Below, one piece after another: positions 5,846-40,936 of a DNA stretch of 42,702 bases. This DNA comes from Prevotella sp. (lineage in GTDB: Bacteria; Bacteroidota; Bacteroidia; Bacteroidales; Bacteroidaceae). The stretch spans positions 1-42,702 of the forward strand of contig JAFWQE010000162.1 in NCBI GenBank assembly GCA_017509155.1, written 5' to 3'. The position numbers and the translations under genes were made by a program. Within the stretch, counting starts at the first letter, position 1, and each line of letters opens with the position of its first letter. The notes under the pieces are model-generated. The model was not told where the DNA came from. It was given only the letters and a program-made list of their open reading frames with translations, and did not search any database.

Positions 5846-5928
5846 GATATCGCGGCTTTGAGATGGCGCCTTCCATTAGCGGAAACGGTGTTCTCAGACA
5901 AGAAAAGCAGCGGATTGGCGAAACGAAA

Positions 5929-6016
5929 TCAATGGAATTGTTGAACGAAATCAATGGAAACGTTCGACAAAATCAACGGAATCGTTGAACAAAATCAATG
6001 GATTTGTTTCTTGAAA
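5929..6016 (+). repeat. 22-bp x 4 repeat array, locus 1
   Basis: Four units start at 5929, 5951, 5973 and 5995, exactly 22 bp apart. Each begins TCAAYGG and the first three continue to a TTGA-like half-site, giving a dyad TCAAYG-N4-YRTTGA. The fourth is the variant GGATTTGTTTC followed by TTGAAA. GAAAC on the left and GTTTC on the right frame the array. It lies 459 bp upstream of the M6 protease. A short minus-strand frame across it is low-grade and unlikely to be a gene. Confidence 0.85.
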
Positions 6017-6551: not shown

Positions 6552-7985
6552 TTACTTTCGCATCATGCGACATTCGGGTGCGTCGAAGCGCATGGTGGCC
6601 TCGTCCTTGACGGTGAAGGGGCTCCACTGGGGCAGGCCGTCGGCATTGGGATTGCCGGTGCGGGCGAAGTTGAGGAGAGAGCTGCTCATCAGGTCGCCAA
6701 GGTGCAGGCCTTCGGGTGTGGCGCCGGTCATGCTGGCACTCTTCAGCACATTGTTGAAGAAGAAGGGGATGTCGGAGCAATGGCAGGCATGGAAGTCGCC
6801 GTCGACGGTGGGCACCTCGTAGGCCGAGAGGTAGACATAGACGGGCGCGCCGTTGTCGGCACAGCGCATGGCAGCCTGACGGATGACCGACTGGCGGACG
6901 AACTCGTCGACCTGCGGCGTTGTGAACTCATGGAGCGTGGAACCGACGAGCAGGGGTATGTCGTTGGACAGGCGCTCGCAGCCGTTCTCAAAGACTCCGG
7001 GCACAGCGGCGCCATCGTTGATGGGTCCCCACCCCACGCGGCCAAAGCGTCCGCCGCCCTCGCCCTGACGGCGCGCGTTCACCTCGTTGATGGCTTTCTG
7101 CGCTGCATCGAGCAGGGTTTCATAGGGCACGGTCTGTATGCTGTCGATGGTCTGCGCTGTCAGGCCCAGATACTCGGCGGTGAGACAGCCCACCTCGCGA
7201 GAGATTTCCTGCGGCGTGCTGCCCAGGAACGAGCCGCTCATGACCATGGCGCGACGGAACAGGCCGTGGGCAGAGGGCATGCACATCAGCGTGGACACCT
7301 TGCCGCCGCCACCGGACTGGCCGAAGATGGTGACGCAATTGGGGTCGCCGCCGAAGTAGGCGATGTTGTCTCTCACCCAGCGAAGGGCTGCCACGATGTC
7401 GGTCATGCCGAGATTGCCCGACTCGCGGTATTTCTCGCCAAAGGCGGAGAGGTCGAGGTGGCCGAGCACATTGAGGCGGTGGTTGATGGTGACGACGACG
7501 ACGTCGCCCTTGTCGGCGAGGTTACGGCCGTCGTAGCCGGGATGCTCCTGACCGTTGCCCGTGGTGTAGCCACCGCCATGGAGCCAGAAGAGCACGGGAC
7601 GTTTCCTGCCGTCGATCAGGCCTTTGGTCCAGATGTTCAGCCGCAGGCAGTCCTCATCGGGGAAGCCGTCGTTCCACTGGTAAAAGAAGGCCGTCTGGTC
7701 GTTGCGCCAGCCGTTGTTCTTGGGCTGCGGACAGACGGGGCCCCAATGGCGCGAGGAGCGCACACCGGTCCAGGCGTCGGGCGCCTGTGCGGGCTGGAAG
7801 CGGGCGGCCTTGGCATAGGGGATGCCCTTATAGGTGTAGACGCCACCCTCGATGTAGCCGGCCACCTGACCATAGCGAGTCTGCGCCAGCGTCGCCTTGG
7901 TGGAGCTGTCGAACACTTGTGCGTGGAGCTGGGCGCCAAAGGAAAGCGCCAGCAGCGTGAGAAGGATTTTCCTGAATTCTTTCAT
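6552..7985 (-). CDS. secreted type-B carboxylesterase
   Basis: 477 residues from the ATG of MKEFRKILLTLLALSFGAQL (signal peptide ending AQLHAQ). A longer in-frame start at 8063 overlaps the upstream gene and would bury the signal peptide. Alpha/beta-hydrolase of the carboxylesterase/cholinesterase family: YKGIPYA near the N terminus, the oxyanion segment WLHGGGY, nucleophile S224 in GQSGGG (the family usually has GESAGG), and likely E353 (TLHEF) and H402 (HCSDIP). Hydrolyses carboxylic esters; in gut Bacteroidota relatives often deacylate plant cell-wall esters, but the substrate is not readable here. It starts 38 bases after the Rpn gene on the same strand and may be read with it. Confidence 0.88.
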   Translation of the reverse strand: MKEFRKILLTLLALSFGAQLHAQVFDSSTKATLAQTRYGQVAGYIEGGVYTYKGIPYAKAARFQPAQAPDAWTGVRSSRHWGPVCPQPKNNGWRNDQTAFFYQWNDGFPDEDCLRLNIWTKGLIDGRKRPVLFWLHGGGYTTGNGQEHPGYDGRNLADKGDVVVVTINHRLNVLGHLDLSAFGEKYRESGNLGMTDIVAALRWVRDNIAYFGGDPNCVTIFGQSGGGGKVSTLMCMPSAHGLFRRAMVMSGSFLGSTPQEISREVGCLTAEYLGLTAQTIDSIQTVPYETLLDAAQKAINEVNARRQGEGGGRFGRVGWGPINDGAAVPGVFENGCERLSNDIPLLVGSTLHEFTTPQVDEFVRQSVIRQAAMRCADNGAPVYVYLSAYEVPTVDGDFHACHCSDIPFFFNNVLKSASMTGATPEGLHLGDLMSSSLLNFARTGNPNADGLPQWSPFTVKDEATMRFDAPECRMMRK

Positions 7986-8023: not shown

Positions 8024-9145
8024 TCATAGTGTCTCTATGATGTCGGCAGACAGTCCGGTGCACTGAGCAATGGTCGCGATGTCGATGCCTACGGATTTCA
8101 TCTTCATGGCAGTCTGCCGCGCTGCTTCTGCAATGCCTTTCTGCATGCCTTCAGCCATTCCTTCTTTGCGTCCCAGCTCTTTGCCTTCTTCCAAGCCCTC
8201 GGCACGGCCCTCTTTTCTACCCTCGGCACGGCCCTCTTTTCTACCCTCGGCACGGCCTTCTTTTCTACCCTCGGCACGGCCTTCTGCTATTCCCTCAGCT
8301 CGGCCTTCAGCAAGACCCTCGGCTCGACCCTCGGCTCGACCTTCCGCACGACCCTCCGCACGACCTTCCGCACGACCCTCCTCGCGCCCTTCGAATCTTC
8401 CTTCCAGCTTTCCTTCACCTCGTGCTGTGAATATCTGGTCGGCAAGGATCACGCGGTCGTCAACATAGCGGCGATAGGCGGCCTGCTCCTCACGGCTCAT
8501 CTTTGAGAATAGCAACTTCTCGCGGGCTTCCGCAAGGCCCGGAGCATCGGCATCCTCGGGTATCTCGCTCGTCGAAAGGAAGTAGATCCATTGCTCCAGA
8601 GGGACCTTAGACCAGCGGTTGAAGTCGTTCACCTTCAGGATATAGTATTCAGGATAGAGCTGATAGACCTCGTTCACCCCGAACTGCTGACGCTGGAACG
8701 TCGACAGCCGAAGCACGTCGTCCTCGTGGATGCCCCGGAACTCGGTCTTGCCGTGATAAACGAAGTCCTTGCCCTGACCCAGGTCGAAGTAGACGATGTT
8801 GATGCTGTACACCTTCTTCACGTTGTCGTAGTTCTTACCGCTGTCGATATACTCCGTGACGAGTTTCGAGGCGCCGAAGAGGATGCGCTGGAAATAGGCG
8901 TATTCGGTCTCGCCCTGCACTTCGATGAGCAGCAGTTCGCCCTTCTCGTCCTCGGCCAGGATGTCCACGCGGTTTGACTTGGAATCCTCGCGGTCCTTGT
9001 TGCCCTCGCTCTCCAGGAGGCGGTGAATCTTGATGCTCGTCTCCAGCAGCGTGCTGAGGAAGCCCTCGAGCACACCGAAGTTGGCCTTGTCGCGCAACAG
9101 GCGCTTCAGGGCCCAGTCGAAACTGATGTATGTACGGTCTCTCAT
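8024..9145 (-). CDS. Rpn/PD-(D/E)XK nuclease-family protein with expanded EGRA repeat
   Basis: 373 residues. Residues 1-230 match the Rpn/'PD-(D/E)XK nuclease family transposase' type, with the likely active site D61 (RVDIL), E75 and Q77 (IEVQGE). Rpn proteins are DNA endonucleases linked to recombination or phage defence; they are not classical transposases. Residues about 243-339 are a hydrophilic, probably helical repeat with EG every four residues, mostly EGRA/EGRK. The last ~30 residues end TIAQCTGLSADIIETL, a helix-turn-helix-like segment shared with the second Rpn protein of this window. The start ATG follows an AGGAG ribosome site and a TATATTTG promoter box. Confidence 0.85.
   Translation of the reverse strand: MRDRTYISFDWALKRLLRDKANFGVLEGFLSTLLETSIKIHRLLESEGNKDREDSKSNRVDILAEDEKGELLLIEVQGETEYAYFQRILFGASKLVTEYIDSGKNYDNVKKVYSINIVYFDLGQGKDFVYHGKTEFRGIHEDDVLRLSTFQRQQFGVNEVYQLYPEYYILKVNDFNRWSKVPLEQWIYFLSTSEIPEDADAPGLAEAREKLLFSKMSREEQAAYRRYVDDRVILADQIFTARGEGKLEGRFEGREEGRAEGRAEGRAEGRAEGRAEGLAEGRAEGIAEGRAEGRKEGRAEGRKEGRAEGRKEGRAEGLEEGKELGRKEGMAEGMQKGIAEAARQTAMKMKSVGIDIATIAQCTGLSADIIETL
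8196..8291. repeat. 24-bp in-frame tandem repeat inside the Rpn gene
   Basis: Units start at 8196, 8220, 8244 and 8268 and are nearly identical over 24 bases (CCCTCGGCACGG then CCYTCTTTTCTA), encoding EGRAEGRK. To the right the repeat degrades to 12-bp units. Such perfect in-frame units can gain or lose copies by slippage without changing the frame. Confidence 0.9.
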
Positions 9146-19518: not shown

Positions 19519-19778
19519 TTATTTGCAAAAAAAGTGAAAAAAAGAACAAACGCGCGGTCGCCAAGGTGAATACCGTAAGTAATCGCGCTGTTTTTACGGC
19601 AAAATGGTTTTACGCTGGCTTTCGGAAGTTGTGGGAATCAGGGGTTCTCTGCAAGCAAAACGTCCAAGGACCGTTGACCTTGGCCGAGCGCAGGGGTTGC
19701 AGGAATTGCAGACGTCAGCACATCTGCTCTGTTTGAAGAGTCTAGCGCCAGAAATCTGCCAGATAAAAGCAGTTTAAA

Positions 19779-19909
19779 CGGCAGATTTTTGAAACAAAAA
19801 CGGCAGATTTCTGAAACAAATCCAATGGAATCGTTCAACGAAGTCAATGGAATCGTTGAACAAAACCAATGGAATCGTTGAACGATTTCAATGGATTTGT
19901 TTCTCGAAA
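19779..19909 (+). repeat. 22-bp x 4 repeat array, locus 2, with extra 22-bp leader units
   Basis: CGGCAG-type units start at 19779 and 19801 (22 bp apart, each reading CGGCAGATTT-N-TGAAACAAA). They are followed by four units at 19822, 19844, 19866 and 19888 (22 bp apart) beginning YCAATGGA. The fourth is again the GGATTTGTTTC variant, followed by TCGAAA. Lies in the 725-base gap between the divergent susC and the secreted-protein gene at 20148, 400 and 238 bases from their starts. Apart from promoters and this array the gap (19423-20147) holds no gene. Confidence 0.88.
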
Positions 19910-20011
19910 ATGGCGGTTTAGGTGCCTGAGAATGGCGGTTAGGCGGCCTGAAACTGGCGTGTTCAAGCCATCACAATTGCACCGCAGAATGCAAGAAAAA
20001 CGGCAAAACGC

Positions 20012-29362: not shown

Positions 29363-29530
29363 TATCAAAGAACCATTCCATTGATTTCGTTCAACAAACC
29401 CATTGATATCGTTCAACAAATCCATTGATTTCGTTCAACGATTCCATTAGATTTGTTTCAGAAATCTGCCGTCTTTATTTAAAAAATCTGGCGTCTTTGT
29501 TTCAGAAATCTGCCGTCTTTTTTGCTCAAA
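29363..29530 (-). repeat. 22-bp x 4 repeat array, locus 3, with three further 22-bp units
   Basis: Read on the minus strand, four units start at about 29450, 29428, 29406 and 29384, 22 bp apart, with AATGG and TTGAACGA/TTGAACGATA parts. To the right a second 22-bp unit type (plus-strand CTGCCG/CTGGCG then TTTATTT/TTTGTTTC) starts at 29466, 29488 and 29510, in the same period. The whole gap 29201-29978 otherwise holds repeat mosaics (29581-29760), two promoters and no gene. Confidence 0.87.
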
Positions 29531-30418: not shown

Positions 30419-30895
30419 TCAGGGCTGGACTAAGAGCCAGTCGAGAAGTGTGGCACAGGCATCCTCGATGAGGTCGAGGGCTAGTTCGAAGTCCTGAGGG
30501 CCACCGTAATAAGGGTCGGGAACGGTGGTCTGGCCGGGATGGTGGCGCAGGAAGTCGGCAAGGCAGAGGATGCGTCCGGCAGCCTCTTGCGACGGAGCCA
30601 GACGGCGCAGGTCGTGGATGTTCTCGTCGTCCATGCCGATGATGTAGTCAAACCGTTCGAAGTCGATGGCGCGCACCTGTCGGGCAGGATGCGTCAGACT
30701 GAGACCACGGCGCTGGGCGTGCTGGCGCATGCGGCGGTCGGGAAGCTGTCCGGCGTGCCACGAACCGATGCCGGCGCTGTCTACCGAGAACAACGCCTGC
30801 AGGCCGTTCTCCTCTATGAGTCGCTCCATGACGCCCTGCGCAGCCGGACTGCGGCAGATGTTTCCCAGACACACAAACAGGATTTTCTTCGACAT
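30419..30895 (-). CDS. low-molecular-weight protein tyrosine phosphatase
   Basis: 158 residues from MSKKILFVCLGNICRSPAAQ. The P-loop C-x5-R is C9 to R15, with the family signature VCLGNICRS, and the general acid D127 lies in VPDPYYGG. Length and layout are standard for the cytoplasmic LMW-PTP/arsenate-reductase fold. ATG at 30895 is preferred to the ATG at 30907, which is only a few bases from the expected transcription start; GGAGAA precedes 30895. In Bacteroidota these enzymes are usually single genes of unknown substrate or linked to capsule regulation; no such genes are near here. It diverges from the second Rpn gene. Confidence 0.93.
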   Translation of the reverse strand: MSKKILFVCLGNICRSPAAQGVMERLIEENGLQALFSVDSAGIGSWHAGQLPDRRMRQHAQRRGLSLTHPARQVRAIDFERFDYIIGMDDENIHDLRRLAPSQEAAGRILCLADFLRHHPGQTTVPDPYYGGPQDFELALDLIEDACATLLDWLLVQP

Positions 30896-30918
30896 ATTCT
30901 TCTCCATAAAAAGCCATG

Positions 30919-30949
30919 CAAAGGTAACGCAAAAAAGCGAGGCGGCAAA
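30919..30949 (-). promoter_or_regulatory. promoter of the LMW-PTP gene
   Basis: Minus-strand TTTG (30946-30949), 19-base spacer, TACCTTTG (30919-30926). It lies back to back with the divergent Rpn promoter: the two -33 elements are 26 bases apart. Confidence 0.75.
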
Positions 30950-30975
30950 AAAATCACCAACTTTTGCACAAATAA

Positions 30976-31006
30976 TTGCATGGATAAAGAAAAAAACGTA
31001 TCTTTG
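30976..31006 (+). promoter_or_regulatory. promoter of the second Rpn gene
   Basis: TTG at 30976-30978, 20-base spacer, TATCTTTG at 30999-31006, leaving a leader of about 110 bases before the ATG at 31122. Confidence 0.75.
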
Positions 31007-31121
31007 CATCGGCCTTAAGCGAGCCCAGGACAATTCTTCCGGTTGTATATCAAAGAAGCCTGCGCTCTCTTTTAGACAAGATAAACAATTGATTGCTGAA
31101 AAAGAAAAGAAAAGAAAGAAA

Positions 31122-32024
31122 ATGAGCAGATTCATCAACCCATTCACCGACGTTGGTTTCAAACGAATCTTCGGACAAGAGGTGAACAAGGACTTACTGA
31201 TAGATTTCCTCAATGGTCTTCTCTACGGCGAGCGGCACATTGAGGACCTGACCTTTCTGGACAAAGAGCAGTTGCCAGACCTGTCGACGACAGCAGACCG
31301 TTCACTTATCTATGATATCTACTGTCGCACATCGACAGGTGAGCACATCATTGTGGAAATGCAGAACAAATCACAGAACCATTTCAAGGAGCGTGCCGTG
31401 TACTATATGTCCAACAGCATTGTGAACCAAGGAAAGCGAGGCGATTGGAAATACGACGTGAAGGCTGTCTATGGTGTGTTCTTCATGAACTTTGCCACAG
31501 CGAACTTTCCCAACAAGTTCAGGACAGACGTGGCCTTGATGGACATGCAGGACAAGGAAATCTTCTCCGACCGAATCCGCATGACATTCATCCAGCTACC
31601 TCTGTTTCACAAAGAAGTGGATGATTGCAAGAATGATTTTGAACGTTGGATCTATGTATTGAAGAATATGGAAAACCTGAACAGAATGCCTTGGGGCGCG
31701 CAAGATGCCGTCTTCAAGAAACTATTTGAAATTGCCGATGTGGCCAGCATGACGCCTCGTGAGCGCGACATGTACAACAACAGTCTGAAGGTCTATCGCG
31801 ACGGACTCGTTGTCTATGACGCCGCCGTAGAGGAAGGCATGCAGAAAGGCATGCAGGAAGGCATGCAGAAAGGTATGCAGGAAGGCATGGAAAAAGGCAT
31901 GCAGAAAGGCATGCAAGAAGAAAAGATACAGACGGCACGGCGATTGAAAGCCATGAACATGAATGTGGATACAATAGCACAGGCAACAGGGCTTTCGGCT
32001 GAGGAAATTGCAAGAATTGAGTAG
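31122..32024 (+). CDS. Rpn/PD-(D/E)XK nuclease-family protein with GMQ repeat
   Basis: 300 residues from MSRFINPFTDVGFKRIFGQE, the typical start of this family; the in-frame extension to 30666 overlaps the phosphatase gene and two promoters. Catalytic residues are likely D65 (YDIYC), E79 and Q81 (VEMQNK). Residues about 238-266 are tandem EGMQKGMQ units (24-bp, in-frame). The C terminus NVDTIAQATGLSAEEIARIE matches the end of the Rpn protein at 8024-9145, although the cores are diverged. Rpn-type proteins are nuclease-like and are implicated in recombination or defence; here no partner gene is visible. Ribosome site is a long AAAGAAA-type purine stretch. Confidence 0.87.
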   Translation: MSRFINPFTDVGFKRIFGQEVNKDLLIDFLNGLLYGERHIEDLTFLDKEQLPDLSTTADRSLIYDIYCRTSTGEHIIVEMQNKSQNHFKERAVYYMSNSIVNQGKRGDWKYDVKAVYGVFFMNFATANFPNKFRTDVALMDMQDKEIFSDRIRMTFIQLPLFHKEVDDCKNDFERWIYVLKNMENLNRMPWGAQDAVFKKLFEIADVASMTPRERDMYNNSLKVYRDGLVVYDAAVEEGMQKGMQEGMQKGMQEGMEKGMQKGMQEEKIQTARRLKAMNMNVDTIAQATGLSAEEIARIE

Positions 32025-40679: not shown

Positions 40680-40848
40680 TTGCGAAAGTTGAGTTATCTT
40701 TTTTCGTTGTCCGTTTTTACTGTCTGGAGTCACATTGTTTAGGAGTTTCAGGAGAAACAGATGAAAGATTGATTAGCTGATTTAGGCAGAATCGAGCCTG
40801 AAAACCTGCACTTTCCAAGGCCTTTTCTGGCGTTTTCAAGCAACGATG

Positions 40849-40936
40849 TCAATGGATTTGTTCAACAAAATCAATGGAATTGTTCAACAAAATCAATGGA
40901 ATTGCTGAACGATTCCAATGGATTCGTTTCCGGAAA
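40849..40936 (+). repeat. 22-bp x 4 repeat array, locus 4
   Basis: Units start at 40849, 40871, 40893 and 40915, 22 bp apart, each YCAATGGA then TTGTTCAAC- or TTGCTGAAC-like. The fourth is again the terminal variant (GGATTCGTTTC followed by CGGAAA). Located 267 bases upstream of sufB. Confidence 0.87.

Follow-up and report, generated by a model that had tools for sequence, protein, structure and literature searches.

Four 22-bp repeat arrays in a 42,702-bp stretch of Prevotella DNA (hereafter the window) are part of a dispersed intergenic family of at least 119 elements in the genome concerned. We consider them to be a PINSR-like dispersed repeat that acts as a phased, multi-dimer platform for a putative protein, a reading to which we give a probability of roughly one half. 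In this genome the elements have a common architecture of symmetric sites at constrained spacing, lie between genes and lack base-pair covariation in their symmetric columns. Related species carry arrays with the same pitch, at other positions and with another core sequence.

The arrays had been picked out by a first-pass annotation of the window; all four are real and lie where it placed them (Table 1), and Tandem Repeats Finder reports a period of 22 at each. Every core consists of four CCAWTGG-type and three GTTSAAC-type dyads and ends in GTTTC or a close variant, the fourth unit being a half unit only at all four sites. The imperfect dyad noted in most units is more accurately seen as a pair of odd-length palindromes in each unit, at a distance of 11 bp. 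The left flank of element B has 2.0 copies at period 22 (Tandem Repeats Finder), on the same lattice as is seen genome-wide, and the lattice centres of its right flank are model columns 114, 136 and 158. Window genes neighbouring the arrays include those for a peptidase M6 protein, a TonB-linked receptor, a beta-galactosidase, a leucine-rich repeat (LRR) protein and SufB (Pfam), with the LRR protein gene on one side of element D and sufB on the other.

Table 1 Array cores and in-phase flanking units in the window.
Feature	Coordinates	Strand	CCAWTGG-type dyad centres	GTTSAAC-type dyad centres	Remarks
Element A core	5924..6010	+	5932, 5954, 5976, 5998	5943, 5965, 5987	Dyad centres from the genome-wide column map
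Element B core (array under study)	19817..19903	+	19825, 19847, 19869, 19891	19836, 19858, 19880	
Element B left flank	19776..19820	+			Two in-phase 22-bp 'A' units (AAACGGCAGATTTCTGAAACAA)
Element B right flank	19906..19959	+			About 2.5 in-phase 22-bp 'A' units (GAAAATGGCGGTTAGG...)
Element C core	29369..29455	-	29447, 29425, 29403, 29381		
Element C flank	29462..29520	-			2.7 'A' units of 22 bp; plus-strand consensus AAATCTGCCGTCTTTATTTAAA
Element D core	40844..40930	+	40852, 40874, 40896, 40918		

The window's genome (G000) is a 3.44 Mb bin of 229 contigs, 82% complete with 6% contamination. The typed pattern CAATGGAATNGTTGAACNNAAA, with up to three mismatches, matched it 142 + 139 times, a number well above what chance would give, against 0 + 0 for the same pattern reversed. 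A sequence-only model was built from the four window elements and 150 of 929 first-look candidates were scored, so that the counts for this genome are lower bounds; the stretches studied (847 kb) were chosen for holding arrays and are not a random sample. Profile search of these stretches gave 122 matches, 120 of them with zero net indel and both exceptions at a single locus, C43. Dropping three matches below 55 bits (two at C43 and a second one at C191) left 119 elements that score at least 55 bits, a copy number above 100 for a genome bin that is 82% complete. A de novo scan for 22-bp periodicity recovered all 122 matches and seven further arrays, some of them of the outer 'A' type. The elements carry a mean of 22.1 substitutions from the consensus over 118 columns and have a median pairwise identity of 73%, and the scarcity of indels is thus not simply a sign of recent origin.

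Column frequencies over the 119 elements place the CCAWTGG sites at columns 26, 48, 70 and 92 and the GTTSAAC sites at columns 37, 59 and 81, together a palindrome every 11 bp, within a core that begins with GAAAC and ends with GTTTC. Outer 'A' sites of the form AAAYGSCRGWTT follow in phase at columns 4, -18 and -40 and at columns 114, 136 and 158; they are degenerate, keep the same 22-bp phase and weaken with distance from the core. The column frequencies have mirror symmetry about column 59 (r = 0.815) and translational symmetry at 22 bp (r = 0.96), with eight local symmetry axes above r = 0.75 (columns 26, 37, 48, 81, 92, 114, 136 and 158); the lattice columns 59 and 70 fall below this value as local axes. 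Conservation peaks at the centre of the element and not at its ends. The number of exactly four units, reported for the window, holds for 109 of the 119 elements when the run of CCAWTGG sites is counted, with three sites in seven elements and five in three. The run of GTTSAAC sites is three in 97 elements, four in 13, two in 6 and another number in 3.

All 119 elements are intergenic according to a codon-usage gene caller written for this analysis. Where a gene was called on both sides (n = 100), the two genes are convergent for 29 elements, divergent for 21 and co-directional for 50, and the comparison set of intergenic gaps of at least 150 bp in the same stretches (n = 262) has 55, 53 and 154, respectively. 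Across the genome the elements show no orientation bias relative to genes. Other dispersed mosaic repeats adjoin the arrays in intergenic regions of this genome (for example at e70, e84, e16 and e57), among them a GAACACAGAGAC hairpin and an ATTCGTG...GCGCCGCAGGC repeat that occurs in either orientation, and they are often common to several elements. A second sufB gene (G000:C1:2474-3787) encodes a protein 90% identical to that of the window, which suggests that the bin holds some DNA of another Prevotella.

Searched against 39 other genomes, of which 23 belong to the same genus, the model gave no strong match. Weak matches only were found with model R1, in 2 of the 39 (G005 and G006), and they turned out to be arrays of the same pitch in other letters, so that a homologous core in relatives was rejected and a de novo lattice scan followed, which scored identity at shift p in stretches of 66 bp with 0.62 as the threshold. 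G016 (400 kb scanned) had 13 matches at period 22 and no more than 2 at any period other than a multiple of 22. G040 (also 400 kb) had 5 at period 22, one of which was a run of N that matches at every period. In 346 kb of G006 there were 19, with periods 14 (12 matches), 21 (10), 28 (8) and 18 (7) also raised, and in three G006 arrays GCC-containing units that resemble the 'A' units by eye lie in phase outside the array. None of the de novo arrays lies within a called gene (0 of 148 in G000, 0 of 19 in G006, 0 of 14 in G016 and 0 of 5 in G040) in genomes with a coding fraction of 0.79-0.86; these four are the genomes in which gene overlap was checked and for which 'intergenic' holds.

Around three conserved genes (SufB, Mrp-like and AlaS; 90 loci, 356 kb), 15 matches were found at period 22, 0 at periods 23-26 and 7 at period 21; the 15 include three of G000's own, three of G006 and one (L300) in low-complexity AT sequence. 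Arrays of other sequence occur in G015, G017, G018, G043, G049, G050, G060, G063 and G074, and no 22-bp array was found in 362 kb from four genomes of other Bacteroidales families. The arrays examined in relatives number 48: the unit count is exactly four in 36 and between five and eight in 12, with a bias against three because most three-unit arrays go undetected. Tested one by one, 13 of the 48 are palindromic (p<0.05), with 1 of 14 in G016 and 0 of 5 in G040. Pitch and unit number thus recur across the sampled species, and dyad symmetry is not evident in every species. Between a MerR-type gene and alaS in G006 (L297, contig C88), an eight-unit AAATTGATTTGC array is directly followed by a second 22-bp array of other sequence. 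A wider contig search returned 11 stretches, 8 of which were dropped as single 20-mers with a profile score of at most 19 bits (seven in other genera and one in P. disiens). A plasmid or phage origin was rejected, the window element being without a match in plasmids or phages; viral contigs gave no match to one exact 20-base pattern of the element.

The positions of the arrays change between species. Among 83 adjacent ortholog pairs in sampled stretches of four genomes, five have an array in either member, and in all five the relative is without it, the gap shrinking from 394 to 31, 754 to 132, 500 to 45, 279 to 70 and 650 to 147 bp; four of these five arrays come from G000 because its stretches were picked for arrays. 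At 29 other sufB loci, no array was found upstream of sufB within the 1.5 kb examined. The comparison with close genomes covers three contigs. One from Prevotella sp. UBA3837 (L126) is 96% identical over its length to contig C12 of G000 and has its array in the same place with exactly one 22-bp unit fewer, four versus five. One from RGIG6559 (L123) is 97% identical to contig C53 up to a break within the third unit of the array, at about position 1815, and the array may be the rearrangement point. The third (UBA3837, L127) joins differently around its array, in a comparison cut short by the end of the G000 contig. In these three contigs only, array position is kept once, broken in the array once and apparently rearranged once.

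Some copies within G000 are recent duplicates, with identity as high as 95% along 321 bp. The boundaries of the element are diffuse but clustered: of the 338 pairwise alignments that are 180 bp or longer, 140 have their left end near column -50 and 199 have their right end near columns 140-170, and one recent subfamily of seven copies spans about -53 to 226. The annotation's option of a mobile or dispersed repeat is borne out in part, by the positions that differ between species and by the recent copies.

A serious alternative to the platform reading is a purely selfish intragenomic repeat, REPIN- or MITE-like, in which the lattice is the recognition site of a transposase or recombinase and has no role for the host. 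The clustering of the ends, as in a mobile unit, adds weight to this alternative and takes weight from the platform reading, and the dispersed, species-specific and recently duplicated copies, the orthologous gaps that are empty in five of five cases, the span of the seven-copy subfamily and the two of three close-genome comparisons that break in or near arrays all point the same way. However, it is the centre of the element that is most conserved, and the seven-copy subfamily has neither inverted termini above shuffles (the rest were checked by eye) nor a consistent direct (target) duplication at its ends. Nor does a mobilizing enzyme follow the arrays among the families tested, Y1 and PDDEXK_2, and we regard a purely selfish origin as possible but somewhat doubtful.

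The same two families were the candidates for a binding protein, both failed, and no binding protein was found. PDDEXK_2 was not found in 7 of 12 genus genomes, including G006 with its 19 arrays. The Y1 (RAYT) transposase is present in G000 and is not constant across the genus, as it was not found at E 0.001 in 9 of 24 genomes, among them G017, which is 94% complete and has a clear array. In G016, 22-bp arrays lie within about 700 bp of two of the three Y1 loci (L241 and L245), and these two share sequence beside the array. The window itself has two PDDEXK_2 nuclease genes, at 30666-32024 and 8468-9121, which we take to be Rpn-type; the first adjoins element C and contains a 12/24-bp repeat at 31831-31915 (Tandem Repeats Finder).

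Symmetric sites could also act as paired RNA or as a cruciform, which is unlikely given that base-pair covariation is lacking. On the global axis, 65.1% of cells are Watson-Crick compared with 65.5% after shuffling (z = -1.2), several local dyads pair below their shuffles, column 92 pairs above (z = 2.4), and corrected mutual information finds mainly short-range coupling between columns. Symmetric columns without covariation favour the recognition of half-sites on duplex DNA. It is improbable that a structured or small RNA is transcribed from the arrays or that they terminate transcription, although each of the eight strands of the four window elements has a more stable fold than its shuffles on average (z from -0.8 to -8.9, with -7.2 and -8.9 for element B) and the elements have a slight convergent excess over intergenic gaps (29 of 100 versus 55 of 262). 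Element A folds weakly (z = -2.4 and -0.8), tandem palindromes by themselves can give better-than-shuffle folding, and a search of Rfam gave no match for the window and, for six array-bearing loci, nothing but a tRNA. The small-RNA template suggested by the annotation is thus not supported by hairpin-axis covariation, Rfam or orientation bias, though single copies fold better than shuffles.

Operator sites of a transcription factor are a further reading. Each window element lies upstream of at least one gene (for example sufB or the TonB-linked receptor), so that the upstream placement described for the window stands there; it does not extend to the genome, in which the 29/21/50 split of the 100 elements shows no upstream bias. 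Apart from a few large families, no gene family was seen repeatedly next to arrays in the four genomes compared, and positions are not common to species, which makes operator sites of a transcription factor governing a regulon very improbable. An ordinary drifting minisatellite is the least credible reading and is largely refuted by the copy-number distribution, since the one-unit difference in a close-genome pair, the ten of 119 elements with three or five dyads and the eight-unit array of G006 stand against a fixed number in 109 of 119 dispersed copies and a near absence of net indels.

Of the options given by the annotation, a multimeric binding site is the best supported, by the 22/11-bp phasing, the symmetry without covariation and the near absence of indels. 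A lattice with a near-fixed number of sites, central conservation and independent half-sites is the trace expected of a multivalent protein platform. The working part would be phased DNA: four dyad sites are spaced at 22 bp, dyads of a second type sit between them at 11 bp, and weaker sites lie beyond in the same phase. Two helical turns of DNA correspond to 22 bp, and homodimers of the putative protein, one per dyad and lined up along a single face of the helix, could cooperate from one dyad to the next; binding would nucleate at the central four and extend from there into the flanks. Ladders of the same pitch in different letters suggest landing pads for a fast-evolving putative DNA-binding protein. 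The letters change species by species, which suggests that reader and repeat may change together, and the recognized sequence would then change quickly because protein and repeat population do so jointly. Copies would spread, through some copying process, or be lost as intergenic DNA and so would not mark particular genes. For bacteria it would be unusual that recognition sequences are replaced so quickly while the scaffold stays fixed.

In literature searches, judged by titles and the beginnings of abstracts among the matches listed, no such lattice was found for Prevotella 22-bp or palindromic repeats or for a 22-bp period in bacterial intergenic DNA; interspersed palindromes in Bacteroidetes returned none, subscription journals being mostly outside the scope of the search; and a single paper was the sole match for PINSR in Prevotella among the matches listed. 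The TAACTGA direct repeats of Beggiatoaceae are likewise an abundant intergenic tandem motif, a heptamer found mostly just upstream of start codons, and their abstract has no 22-bp lattice (PMC4679880). REP, BIME and REPIN sequences with RAYT transposases also form, in the parts of the papers used here, an extragenic population of palindromic repeats (PMC8266576, PMC3733652, PMC3116915). In contrast to REP and REPIN, the element here has no stem covariation on the global axis and no constant Y1 transposase across the genus sample, and the consensus of the window's genome has no GTAG tag. The BrickBuilt MITE of Porphyromonas gingivalis is, in the sections of the paper used here, likewise intergenic and dispersed and contains a tandem minisatellite whose unit is about as long; it has a 23-nt unit in 1 to 22.8 copies, a leader and tail and IS5-like inverted ends (PMC4596501), whereas the present element has a 22-bp unit in near-fixed number and no inverted ends in the seven copies tested.

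The closest likeness is to PINSR, which the passages used of the original description present as a 188-bp intergenic, non-coding repeat that occurs in P. intermedia (177 and 184 copies in two strains), P. nigrescens, P. falsenii and P. disiens, is present downstream of tnaA, lacks terminal inverted repeats and keeps about three-quarters of its positions between strains (Naito et al. 2015, PMC4755523). G097, a genome of 2.7 Mb in two contigs, has a 22-bp lattice after a tnaA-like gene that scores below the family cut-off; the tnaA-like loci of G077 and G212 have no period-22 array at 0.6. A 191-bp stretch of this lattice recurs in G097 (all 40 scored among 286 candidates) and matches ten places of P. 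nigrescens NZ_CP082843.1, at best with 78.5% identity; it has 0 matches in G000 and none in G077. From location, group and copy number, and set beside the description in the paper rather than its consensus, we infer that the repeat of G097 and P. nigrescens is PINSR.

Scanning 300 of the 568 kb of NZ_CP082843.1 at a threshold lowered to 0.56 gave 27 matches at period 22 against at most 4 at any other period from 15 to 33. This sequence is listed as a P. nigrescens plasmid, carries ileS, dnaB, htpG and other core genes, and looks like a second chromosome. The stretch holds 30 PINSR-like copies, none with its midpoint in an annotated CDS, and their runs of AAAA-N7-TTTT dyads, counted with no shuffled control, are four in 17 copies, three in 9, two in 1, five in 2 and six in 1. 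In a P. disiens locus (L128, about 7177-7310), three AAAA...TTTT dyads 22 bp apart are visible by eye below the scan threshold; PINSR has been reported in this species (PMC4755523).

Like PINSR as described in those passages, the element of the window's genome is high-copy, intergenic, non-coding, clade-restricted and, in the seven-copy subfamily, without terminal inverted repeats, and like the putative PINSR of P. nigrescens it has a 22-bp lattice with modally four dyads (109 of 119 and 17 of 30, respectively). Unlike the present element, PINSR has more variable units, a defined length of 188 bp and, in its putative P. nigrescens copies, looser dyad runs (three in 9 of 30), and the window element has no sequence match to it with the G097 copy as query. 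The annotation's statement that no named family was known thus holds for sequence and not for kind, as PINSR is alike and its putative copies show the lattice. The kind of element is not new, since PINSR already names it; the shared 22-bp architecture, which goes unmentioned in the passages used of the PINSR paper (PMC4755523), appears to be new within the literature searched. We tentatively propose a genus-wide class of nucleoprotein platforms that would combine about four fast-evolving sites, an invariant 22-bp pitch and a co-evolving reader, with PINSR as the sole named member. Pitch and site number would give unexplained Prevotella intergenic repeats, PINSR included, a shared invariant, and the purpose of PINSR becomes testable through a protein that protects DNA every 22 bp.
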